Below are positions 12,766 to 62,042 of a stretch of 64,000 nt of DNA, in pieces (the first letter of the stretch is position 1; every line of letters starts with the position of its first letter). The DNA lies in contig CACHJU010000005.1 of NCBI GenBank assembly GCA_902580225.1, forward strand, positions 1 to 64,000, read 5' to 3'. Made by a program: the position numbers and the translations under genes. The DNA comes from an uncultured Verrucomicrobiota bacterium. GTDB taxonomy: Bacteria > Verrucomicrobiota > Verrucomicrobiia > Opitutales > Seribacteraceae. Below the pieces are notes generated by a model. It did no database searches and had not been told where the DNA came from. It saw only the letters and a list, made by a program, of their open reading frames with translations.

Positions 12766-13068
12766 ATGAATAAAAGTAATAAATTGTTTATGGGAATTAT
12801 TATTATCTTGTCCGCCTCCTTATTCATGGGAGCCTTGGGTAGTAAATCTGAAGCGTCTTTGAATGTTATAAAAGCGGGTGTGGATGAGAATGGGAATCCT
12901 TTATGTGTGAATAAAAGCCAAGTTTACCTTTTCAAAAAAGATCAGTCTAAAAATAAAATTATTTTTTACTATCACGATGCGAAGAGCTCTGATGCTTCGA
13001 TAATTAAGTCTTTTGCCGATTCTGAAAGTCTCGATGGCTACTGGGAAGAACTTTTAAGAAAGTGGTAA
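12766..13068 (+). CDS. small secreted or membrane-anchored protein, unknown
   Basis: 100 residues. A clear ribosome binding site (GGAGA at 12751-12755) precedes ATG 12766. The N-terminus has a hydrophobic stretch (residues ~7-25) that reads as a signal peptide or membrane anchor. The remaining ~70 residues are hydrophilic, with one Cys and a Trp-rich end. I recognise no family. It stands alone, with a long gap downstream that holds hairpins and a candidate small RNA. Confidence 0.55.
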   Translation: MNKSNKLFMGIIIILSASLFMGALGSKSEASLNVIKAGVDENGNPLCVNKSQVYLFKKDQSKNKIIFYYHDAKSSDASIIKSFADSESLDGYWEELLRKW

Positions 13069-13196: not shown

Positions 13197-13217
13197 ATTG
13201 TTTCTTTAGGAAACAAT
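13197..13217 (+). other. perfect 8-bp hairpin in intergenic region
   Basis: An inverted repeat with arms at 13197-13204 and 13210-13217 and a 5-base loop. No T-run follows on either strand, so it is not a standard terminator. It may be part of a longer transcript leading to the structured element at 13301-13382. The rest of 13069-13300 is AT-rich and shows no gene that I can support. Confidence 0.35.
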
Positions 13218-13300
13218 CAGTAAGTATTTTGTAAAAGTGAATCCAAGGTTACATCTTTTAAAGTACTTTTTTACTATTATTTCAACTTTGGCATCAATTA

Positions 13301-13382
13301 TGCATTAGGTAAATGCAAGGAAAGGGTTTCATGGTAACACCATGTAAGGCACACGTCAGAGGAAGGCGTGTGCCTTTTTTTG
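13301..13382 (+). ncRNA. candidate structured small RNA with intrinsic terminator
   Basis: Three hairpins follow one another: 13301-13317 (6-bp stem, loop AGGTA), 13330-13344 (6-bp stem, loop AAC) and 13347-13375 (9-bp GC-rich stem with arms AGGCACACG and CGTGTGCCT, 11-base loop). The third runs directly into a T-tract (13375-13382), which is a textbook Rho-independent terminator. No gene ends just upstream on this strand and none begins downstream on it. A possible -10-like TACTAT lies at 13272-13277, without a convincing -35. I do not recognise a known RNA family. Confidence 0.5.
13347..13382 (+). terminator. Rho-independent terminator
   Basis: A 9-bp perfect stem (13347-13355 with 13367-13375) is followed by seven to eight T residues. 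It ends the candidate small RNA on the plus strand. The convergent gene at 13402-13941 ends 20 bp away. Confidence 0.7.
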
Positions 13383-13401: not shown

Positions 13402-13941
13402 TTAAAATCCCTTAATTCTTTGACCCCCACTTTGGTCCATGGGTAAAATTTGGCATATCTTAAGGTGTTTGGGGCCAATTGTGAATCGTATGACTTCACC
13501 TGTACCATTTGTTTTTCTTGGTAATCCATCTCTTGCTTTTATGGCTACGCATTCTATAAGATCTTTACCATTATAACCTTTTTCATTCGATTCTGTGTAT
13601 AATCCGTCCGGATGTACAAAGCTCACAATTTTTCCATATTTTACTTGGGCATTTCTAGAATACCGGATTATATCTCCAATTTGAAAAGTTGGTTTCTTCA
13701 AATACTTCAATCTATTCAATTTTTTACATTTACATTCACTTATTCGAAAGAATTTTAATTCTAAATTACTCTTTCGAACGGGAGATAAGTCATGTGGATT
13801 CAACTGTAGAAGTTGTAACTTTCTTTTTCTACCTTCTTGGACAAAAATAACTTCTCCAATACGTTTTTTCTGATTACTCGCGAATTTCTCAATAACCCGA
13901 TCGCCAATTTCTAAGGGTGTATAATTTTTTTTATTCATCAT
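13402..13941 (-). CDS. unknown protein with two SH3-like (KOW-type) segments
   Basis: 179 residues starting at ATG 13941 (or 13938). Two segments share a pattern: 'PLEIGDRVIEKF...KRIGEVIFVQ' (residues ~8-35) and 'FQIGDIIRYSRNAQVKYGKIVSFVH' (~86-110). This 'xIGDxIxY...xGxIV' form is typical of small SH3-like barrels that bind RNA or DNA. The protein is basic (many Lys and Arg). No family is recognised and function is not assigned. It stands alone between two long intergenic gaps. Confidence 0.55.
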   Translation of the reverse strand: MMNKKNYTPLEIGDRVIEKFASNQKKRIGEVIFVQEGRKRKLQLLQLNPHDLSPVRKSNLELKFFRISECKCKKLNRLKYLKKPTFQIGDIIRYSRNAQVKYGKIVSFVHPDGLYTESNEKGYNGKDLIECVAIKARDGLPRKTNGTGEVIRFTIGPKHLKICQILPMDQSGGQRIKGF

Positions 13942-16402: not shown

Positions 16403-17827
16403 ATGCTCAGGTTTTCCTTACTCGTAGTTTTTTTTCTCTTTTCAAAAAGTGGGTTGTGGGCTGCTGCTCCGATAGCTTACTCGGGTAAAGTTTCAATTTA
16501 CAACTCAAATTATCATGGTTATGCGAAACTCACTTTTTCTCTATACGATTCGAATAACACAGTAGTTTGGAGAAATGGTGCCGGTGCAGATGATTCGATT
16601 AGAGTTTTTGTAGCCAATGGGCGTTATACCGTTCTTTTAGGCGGGCAGGGTATGAATCAAATACCTTCTCAACTTTTTCTCCAATATGCTGAATTATATT
16701 TAAAAGTTGAATTTGATAACGAAGACGGTTTTGGCAAAAGGCATTTAAAGCCGGATCAACGTATTACTGCTTCGCCATATTCCTTATCTTCGGATTATGC
16801 CAGAATTGCTATGTCAGTTGTTCCCAATTCTATTTCCAAGACCATGCTTACAAGTAATCTTCGCAGTGATTTAAACCGAACAATTACCCGATCGATGTTA
16901 TCCACTGATGTACGCAATGATTTAAATCGGACGATCACCCGTTCGATGCTTTCGAGTGGTGTGCAAACCGATTTAAATCGAACGATTACTAAATCGATGC
17001 TCGCTGCTGATGTACGAAGTGATTTAAACCGAACAATTACCCGATCCATGTTGTCTTCTCAGGTACAGAATGATTTGAATGCTACGATCGAGGCGAATAA
17101 ATTGAGTTCTAATATTAAACGTTATTTCAAACCCTCCATAACCACTCATCCTCAAAATACAACAATCAACAGTGAAGCCAACGGGAGTCTAACAGTGGTG
17201 TCCTCAGGTCAATTTCTAACTTATCAGTGGAAGAAAAACGGCTCAAATCTTTCCGGAAAGATCAGTGCTACTCTTCCCATTATAGATGCAAATGCTACCC
17301 TGCACGAGGGAAATTACACAGTTGTTGTGACCAATGACTTTGGTAATCAGGAGTCCAACCAAGCGGAAATTTTAATCGCGGACCCCCCAGTTGAAATCTT
17401 GAGTTTTACCGGTGGCACCAGTTCTGGAAATATGGTCAATGCTTGGCAAAGGATTTTGATTCCATCTCCCTTTACATCTCATAACATTAGTTCCATTGAT
17501 CTTTATTTGAGAGGTTCAGCAACTGTCTATCTACATGTTTATAACCAGAGCGCAAATGTGAGTACTAACCCGAACACTCGTTTCGCCGGACTTAGTCCGG
17601 TTGCCACCTCCAATTCGAAGACTTTCAATCATAGCTCTTACACCGTTGTCAATTTCGATTTCCCTGCGGGTACAACCTTGAATAGCAATCCACCTTATTA
17701 TATTTGGGCAAAATCGAGTAGTGGTACTCCTCAAATTCAAACCACTTATGTTTCGGGGGGAACTATTGGGGGAAGAGGCAACCTACCTATGATTTTAAAT
17801 GCCAAAGTATATGGAATTGCTCCGTAG
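16403..17827 (+). CDS. secreted Ig-domain protein with 17-residue tandem repeats
   Basis: 474 residues. Residues 1-20 are a signal peptide. An N-terminal beta-rich domain (~20-140, ending 'ITASPYSLSSDYA') is shared in pattern with the 23092-25638 protein. Five tandem 17-residue repeats follow (residues 144-228, consensus ITRSMLSxxVxxDLNRT), then a degenerate sixth ending 'KRYFKPSIT'. After these come an Ig-like domain (~245-325, 'TYQWKKNGSNL', 'NYTVVVTNDFG') and a ~145-residue beta-rich C-terminal module. It is probably a surface or secreted adhesin-like protein; the ligand is unknown. It starts at ATG 16403, and the YHYH gene follows 24 bp later. Confidence 0.75.
   Translation: MLRFSLLVVFFLFSKSGLWAAAPIAYSGKVSIYNSNYHGYAKLTFSLYDSNNTVVWRNGAGADDSIRVFVANGRYTVLLGGQGMNQIPSQLFLQYAELYLKVEFDNEDGFGKRHLKPDQRITASPYSLSSDYARIAMSVVPNSISKTMLTSNLRSDLNRTITRSMLSTDVRNDLNRTITRSMLSSGVQTDLNRTITKSMLAADVRSDLNRTITRSMLSSQVQNDLNATIEANKLSSNIKRYFKPSITTHPQNTTINSEANGSLTVVSSGQFLTYQWKKNGSNLSGKISATLPIIDANATLHEGNYTVVVTNDFGNQESNQAEILIADPPVEILSFTGGTSSGNMVNAWQRILIPSPFTSHNISSIDLYLRGSATVYLHVYNQSANVSTNPNTRFAGLSPVATSNSKTFNHSSYTVVNFDFPAGTTLNSNPPYYIWAKSSSGTPQIQTTYVSGGTIGGRGNLPMILNAKVYGIAP
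16832..17086 (+). repeat. five 51-bp in-frame tandem repeats
   Basis: Period 51 bp (17 codons), five copies inside the Ig-domain protein gene. They share DLNRT ends and an 'I-T-(R/K)-S-M-L' start. Copies differ mainly in the middle residues. They probably form a rod or coiled stalk between the N-terminal domain and the Ig domain. Confidence 0.85.
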
Positions 17828-61940: not shown

Positions 61941-62036
61941 GGTCGGGTCCCATGCGACAACGATTGGATGAACCCCGTCAGGTCCGGAAGGAAGCAGCGG
62001 TAATCACAATTGGCGTGTGCTGTGGGGTGCCTGGCC
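61941..62036 (+). ncRNA. ffs: signal recognition particle RNA (4.5S type)
   Basis: A bacterial short SRP RNA. The conserved apical part 'CAGGTCCGGAAGGAAGCAG' is at 61979-61997, with GGAA tetraloop context and paired flanks. The long outer helix closes between the 5' GGTCGGGT and the 3' GCCTGGCC. A T-run follows at once (62037-62042). It pairs with Ffh to target membrane proteins. It lies between the divergent aroC and dnaX genes. Confidence 0.93.
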
Positions 62037-62042
62037 TTTTTT
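62037..62042 (+). terminator. T-run terminator of SRP RNA
   Basis: Six T residues directly after the closing SRP helix, a normal intrinsic end for this RNA. Confidence 0.6.

Follow-up and report, generated by a model that had tools for sequence, protein, structure and literature searches.

Organization and predicted fold of the locus

We found that, in the window (the whole 64,000-nt stretch of DNA analysed), a predicted small RNA (sRNA) gene with its own sigma-54 promoter and intrinsic terminator lies between a gene on the same strand and a convergent gene (Table 1). Neither neighbouring protein, of 100 aa and 179 aa, belongs to a Pfam family, and for the 100-aa one NCBIfam likewise gave no match. 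A sequence-only reading had placed at 13301-13382 a small structured RNA of three hairpins, the last a strong terminator, in a stretch free of open frames on this strand, with the upstream gene more than 200 bp away; this gene indeed ends at 13068, around 220 bp before the promoter.

Table 1. Features of the predicted sRNA locus and of the second family's copy in the same genome
Feature	Position	Strand	Remarks
AT-rich upstream element AAAGTACTTTTTT	13260-13272	+	C at 13266, 22 nt before TTGGCA
Sigma-54 promoter TTGGCATCAATTATGCA	13288-13304	+	-24 GG at 13290-13291, -12 GC at 13302-13303
Predicted sRNA, ~66 nt	13315-13381	+	Predicted start 12 nt past the -12 C, ±2 nt
Nearly invariant 5' block AGGAAAGGGTTT	13318-13329	+	Candidate base-pairing seed, from the 13-copy alignment
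Hairpin 2 CATGGTAACACCATG	13330-13344	+	CATGG-type stem
Intrinsic terminator	13346-13381	+	12-bp stem 13346-13376, 7-nt loop AGAGGAA, T-run 13375-13381
Gene of 100-aa protein	12766-13068	+	Conserved upstream neighbour, not part of the RNA; beside the sRNA in 13/13 loci
Gene of 179-aa protein	13402-13941	-	Convergent neighbour; present in 10/13 loci
Family-B copy in own genome	L035:1501-1597 = G000:C16:41736-41832		eboE follows ~100 nt downstream, same strand

The three inverted repeats reported earlier (13301-13317, 13330-13344 and 13347-13375) were all recovered at those places, and both hairpin 2 and the terminator with its T-run to 13381 were borne out by the fold of 13301-13382 (MFE -30.5 kcal/mol, z = -5.3), which was equalled by none of 200 shuffles. 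The terminator hairpin exists, but it begins at 13346 instead of 13347 and its stem has 12 bp. The first hairpin (13301-13317) overlaps the TGCA of the -12 element and lies nearly entirely before the start that we infer at ~13315, and thus it is not expected to form part of the RNA; the stretch is also unconserved in the 12 other copies described below. The three-hairpin anatomy is therefore wrong, since its first hairpin is promoter DNA. In the MFE structure of the window copy the bases of the 5' block AGGAAAGGGTTT are left free, whereas in the centroid of a 69-nt fold its leading part pairs with the T-run.

Conservation of the predicted sRNA within the genus

A BLASTn search of 57 genomes, own genome included, returned four relatives of the sRNA locus, two of which (L004 and L005) aligned only from ~13317 onwards, without the promoter, yet carry one. 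With a covariance model built from these four and the window copy and run on 42 genomes of the family, we detected the sRNA, hereafter family A, in 13 of the 27 genus genomes (Opitutales), each time with a sigma-54 promoter and adjoining the same 100-aa gene; the search models include the promoter, and promoter-less copies could be missed. Two weak matches (18-21 bits) among the 15 other family members were dropped, and the first-model matches L029-L032 (18-24 bits) were dropped as chance. Upon extending the search with the family-A model to 273 genomes of the order, drawn evenly from a larger group, 37 gave matches at E <= 0.05, including ten strong ones (78.7-101.6 bits), all within the genus; the other three of the 13 genomes, G017, G007 and G025, were not among the order-wide matches listed. 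The remaining matches were family-B copies, described below, or weak, those outside the family scoring no more than 34 bits. Among the weak ones, L245, L249 and L250 lack a promoter, and L248, despite a promoter-like TTGGCAT-N6-TGCT, is without both the 5' block and the final T-run; all four were rejected. Searching with a pattern that spans the two sRNA families brought up 19 named genome contigs, of which 14 come from Verrucomicrobia, Opitutia or Opitutales assemblies, presumably marine from the assembly names, and five from unrelated taxa.

Across the 13 family-A copies, which come from incomplete assemblies (own genome 67%) of related and hence not independent species, AGGAAAGGGTTTCATGG is nearly invariant. 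The sequence-only reading had suggested purine-rich binding surfaces in a linker and in the terminator loop: the linker AGGAAAGGG hardly varies, which is the behaviour expected of a binding surface, but the loop AGAGGAA recurs in just 4 of the 13 copies. The CATGG-type stem of hairpin 2 appears in the MFE structure of 11 copies and is missing in G003 and G021. The terminator stem, with its structure taken from the window copy, is paired in all 130 cells (10 inner pairs in 13 sequences), and slid versions of it reach at most 71%. A lack of compensatory changes in homologues had been named beforehand as the refutation of a structured RNA; we observed that 6 of the 10 pairs have changed on both sides, as well as none of 500 shuffles achieved. 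The covariation thus supports a small structured RNA that ends in a terminator of its own, and once the edges and first hairpin are corrected, the small RNA proposed at 13301-13382 is probably real.

A second putative sRNA family upstream of eboE

Among the hits of the first family-A model was also a sister type, here called family B, which has a sigma-54 promoter, a 5' GGGCA block, a sequence-variable hairpin in most copies, and a terminator with the mostly conserved loop CTGGGCTGG. In this terminator 97.4% of cells are paired and 3 of 10 pairs are compensated. Family B occurs in 19 of the 27 genus genomes, namely 17 from the model search together with G025 and G017, the latter with a tandem pair, and in 4 of 8 sister-genus genomes. 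When partitioning the genus genomes by family, nine contain both, four only A, ten only B, and four neither, the last being 62-78% complete; all these counts are lower bounds, with G006 and G007 searched for family B with the first model alone. The gene downstream is eboE in all 23 loci, and family B could therefore either act in its own right as an sRNA or form a terminator-bearing leader of eboE. Two weak family-B matches, L263 and L264, have no promoter and were set aside. A tandem duplication of family B is seen on the minus strand at L036:1501-1598 and 1735-1830, both copies being equipped with a sigma-54 promoter and a terminator of their own.

Sigma-54 promoter and upstream element

Sigma-54 promoters follow the consensus YTGGCAC-N5-TTGCW, in which GG and GC stand ten bases apart. 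Directly upstream of the predicted sRNA, TTGGCATCAATTATGCA is a near-consensus promoter of this kind, which the sequence-only reading overlooked and which is the main clue to function. Its TGGC and TGCA are invariant in all 13 family-A copies, as is the GG-N10-GC spacing, and in every copy 15-17 nt separate the -12 C from the GGAAAGG-type block. The exact pattern TTGGCAY-N6-TGCA was found at 7 sites in the own genome, compared to none for the reversed-pattern control, and at 138 versus 9 sites across the 27 genus genomes.

We examined 111 further sigma-54 sites (106 fetched regions and five loci of the own genome), which rule-based sorting divided into 60 intergenic and 51 others. At least eight flgB promoters and one family-B promoter were reassigned by eye from the non-intergenic set, and the remaining 42 sites served as an intragenic control, which may include a few real promoters. 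Recurrent downstream genes, grouped by BLAST clustering, were those of an ammonium transporter (12 sites), a low-molecular-weight phosphatase (9), a urea-type ABC substrate-binding protein (5), a UrtA-like protein (1), the MSMEG_0572/Sll0783 nitrogen-starvation protein (3) and flgB (13, corrected by eye). One member per cluster was tested against NCBIfam and Pfam: MSMEG_0572 and FlgB scored above the NCBIfam equivalog cut-off and the phosphatase above the Pfam cut-off, and the ammonium-transporter, UrtA and urea-type proteins, which are partial sequences, scored below the NCBIfam cut-offs. Neither the phosphatase gene nor flgB counts as a nitrogen gene, and thus a sigma-54 promoter alone is no proof of a nitrogen signal. 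The phosphatase, a low-molecular-weight phosphotyrosine phosphatase, follows a sigma-54 promoter in L124, L163, L176, L184, L195, L216, L221, L222 and L223. A separate site, in L125 (minus strand, position 150), is divergent from a urtA-like gene and has CATTTTT upstream; no ORF was found after it, and it possibly starts another non-coding transcript.

Upstream of the promoters, we compared the C at -22 and a longer motif around it (Table 2).

Table 2. Occurrence of the upstream C and of the longer motif by promoter class
Promoter class	C at -22	C[AT]TTT near -22
sRNA, all	34/36	
sRNA, family A	11/13	6/13
sRNA, family B		14/23
Ammonium transporter	11/12	9/12
Other nitrogen genes	4/9	6/9
Phosphatase	9/9	0/9
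flgB	1/13	2/13
Intragenic sites	9/42	1/42

The C at -22 is shared by the ammonium-transporter promoters and absent from most flgB promoters, so that at the level of sequence the upstream box links the sRNAs to the former and separates them from flgB, without being exclusive to nitrogen genes. A nitrogen-specific box had seemed to follow from the comparison with intragenic sites (15 of 21 nitrogen promoters versus 9 of 42, Fisher p = 0.0002) and is contradicted by the phosphatase promoters, all nine of which have the C; between nitrogen genes and other sigma-54 genes there is no clear difference (15 of 21 versus 10 of 22, Fisher p = 0.08). These p-values are descriptive, as the C was spotted on the same sequences before counting and the species are related. 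In a search for a far-upstream activator palindrome, the window's ATTGTTTCTTTAGGAAACAAT at 13197-13217 was not common to other sigma-54 promoters.

The own genome encodes RpoN (201.5 bits) and two response regulators in which the sigma-54 activation domain is complete, and this incomplete assembly (67%) also contains a kinase/regulator pair with the domains expected of the NtrC type. The NtrC-like regulator reaches 400.6 bits with the NCBIfam NtrC model, below its cut-off of 558.6, and its best NCBIfam model is AtoC (464.1 versus a cut-off of 714), the pair being a candidate NtrB/NtrC.

Targets and protein partners

For base pairing, the best candidate is the conserved 5' block AGGAAAGGGTTT. 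Across the family-A genomes other than G015 and G021 (11 of the 13), the complementary 10-mer AACCCTTTCC was not enriched, with 134 sites compared to 180 for the reversed control. Upon closer examination of 90 of these sites, 89 of them distinct and some being the sRNA itself, 15 lay near a possible start, with one ortholog pair alone (2 of the 11 genomes) sharing such a position, where the site also sits within the last part of the ORF before it. A search for cis targets by duplex energy gave nothing consistent at 12 of the 13 family-A loci, L014 being left out for its N bases.

Turning to protein partners, an Hfq domain was detected in 1 of the 27 genus genomes and was absent from the own genome (67% complete), in which a CsrA domain, looked for in this genome alone, was likewise not found; neither standard partner is thus likely. 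The sole Hfq gene lies on L120 (G004:C54), a 7-kb contig that is possibly a contaminant.

Interpretation and alternative explanations

Sequence comparison presents the promoter, terminator, 5' block and synteny of the sRNA as conserved, and the promoter type as common with nitrogen-uptake genes. As the promoter resembles those of ammonium- and urea-uptake genes, the sRNA is probably a regulator made when nitrogen is short. With moderate confidence, we favour a stand-alone, trans-acting sRNA of ~66 nt, driven by sigma-54, induced by nitrogen limitation and acting without Hfq. When fixed nitrogen is scarce, an NtrC-family activator, presumably that of the candidate pair, would switch on RNA polymerase carrying sigma-54 (RpoN), which would transcribe the free-standing sRNA gene up to the strong intrinsic terminator. 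The 5' block would probably be the part that contacts pyrimidine-rich stretches of mRNAs, and the two hairpins after it would end and protect the RNA, with Hfq not needed. Counting against this reading are the fruitless target searches, the failure to find a far-upstream activator site common to the promoters, the regulator's NtrC score below the cut-off and the C at -22 in the phosphatase promoters, the last of which lowered our confidence slightly.

It is also conceivable, though unlikely, that a sigma-54 sRNA here answers a signal other than nitrogen, for instance the one driving the phosphatase gene. Both flgB and the phosphatase genes are likewise under sigma-54 promoters, and the C at -22 marks every phosphatase promoter as it does nearly all sRNA promoters; however, the same C stands in all but one of the ammonium-transporter promoters, and the longer C[AT]TTT motif, missing from the phosphatase promoters and rare before flgB, is frequent before ammonium-transporter and other nitrogen genes and occurs in both sRNA families (Table 2).

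We regard as improbable that the locus is merely a terminator, possibly bidirectional, of the 100-aa gene, the convergent 179-aa gene or both, with no independent RNA. The convergent arrangement of the neighbours, the strong terminator stem and the constant presence of the 100-aa gene upstream (13 of 13 loci) would fit such a role, whereas the conserved sigma-54 promoter, the nearly invariant 5' block and a second family of the same layout elsewhere in the genome would be left unexplained, and the convergent gene is not found in 3 of the 13 loci.

Very improbable, in our view, is a tiny mRNA in which GGAAAGGG serves as Shine-Dalgarno sequence for an AUG in the first hairpin of the RNA, so that a micro-ORF is encoded. 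The SD-like block does lie a few bases upstream of the AUG, and in 9 of the 13 copies a single codon separates this AUG from a stop, but no such stop exists in the window or G017, it comes after five codons in G014, G003 has no AUG there, the frame is unconserved, and family B has no comparable AUG. A related and highly doubtful proposal is that these marine bacteria, which apparently lack Hfq, respond to nitrogen starvation with two sigma-54 RNAs whose 5' ends are rich in G, and that the window type is a ribosome decoy or minigene that slows translation rather than acting on a particular mRNA by pairing; here the strong SD-like GGAAAGGG, the AUG and the stop one codon on (in nine of the 13 species, not the window's own) would let the RNA tie up initiating ribosomes or peptidyl-tRNA.

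Finally, a protein-titrating RNA of the CsrB/RsmZ type, binding CsrA through the GGA of the 5' block and terminator loop, is most improbable, as GGA occurs in each of the two unpaired stretches in the window copy but in the loop of just 5 of the 13 copies, and no CsrA domain was found in the one genome searched (67% complete).

Comparison with known sigma-54-controlled sRNAs

The known sigma-54-controlled sRNAs include Qrr, which are Hfq-dependent quorum-sensing RNAs, and GlmY/GlmZ, which act through RapZ and glmS. Unlike these, the RNA predicted here has no Rfam match: at this locus the Rfam scans gave no family at gathering score, and the three matches obtained at E up to 5 were all at chance level, none being NrsZ. 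The only bacterial sRNA among the three was the Neisseria sigma-E sRNA (RF02270), with 16.7 bits versus a gathering score of 75 (E = 2.7).

The nearest system by its working is NrsZ of Pseudomonas aeruginosa, which a review (PMC8395346) describes as an sRNA transcribed from a sigma-54 promoter under the nitrogen two-component system NtrB/C; the RNA studied here likewise has a sigma-54 promoter, and its putative link to nitrogen is indirect. It differs from NrsZ in phylum, has a predicted length of ~66 nt, and displays no relation to it in the Rfam scans. The same review presents CrcZ of Pseudomonas as a sigma-54-dependent sRNA under the two-component regulator CbrB, 407 nt long, with several A-rich motifs and acting as an Hfq decoy (PMC8395346), in contrast to an RNA of ~66 nt in a genus in which 26 of 27 genomes yielded no Hfq. 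With an NrsZ-like working and no sequence relation in the Rfam scans, we therefore call the window sRNA a new family of a known kind.

If the favoured sigma-54 sRNA reading is true, uncultured marine Verrucomicrobiota would have a sigma-54 nitrogen regulon that includes two non-coding RNAs, in a lineage whose 27 genomes yielded Hfq just once, and a concrete promoter, transcript and gene set could be tested in metatranscriptomes of nitrogen-poor seas. Searching the open-licence literature by title, we found no study of Opitutales sRNAs and none of a Verrucomicrobia sigma-54 regulon.

Elsewhere in the window, we observed on the forward strand a protein with the repeated motif DLNRTITRSMLS (16403-17827) and the bacterial small SRP RNA (61941-62039; Rfam RF00169, 66.7 bits).
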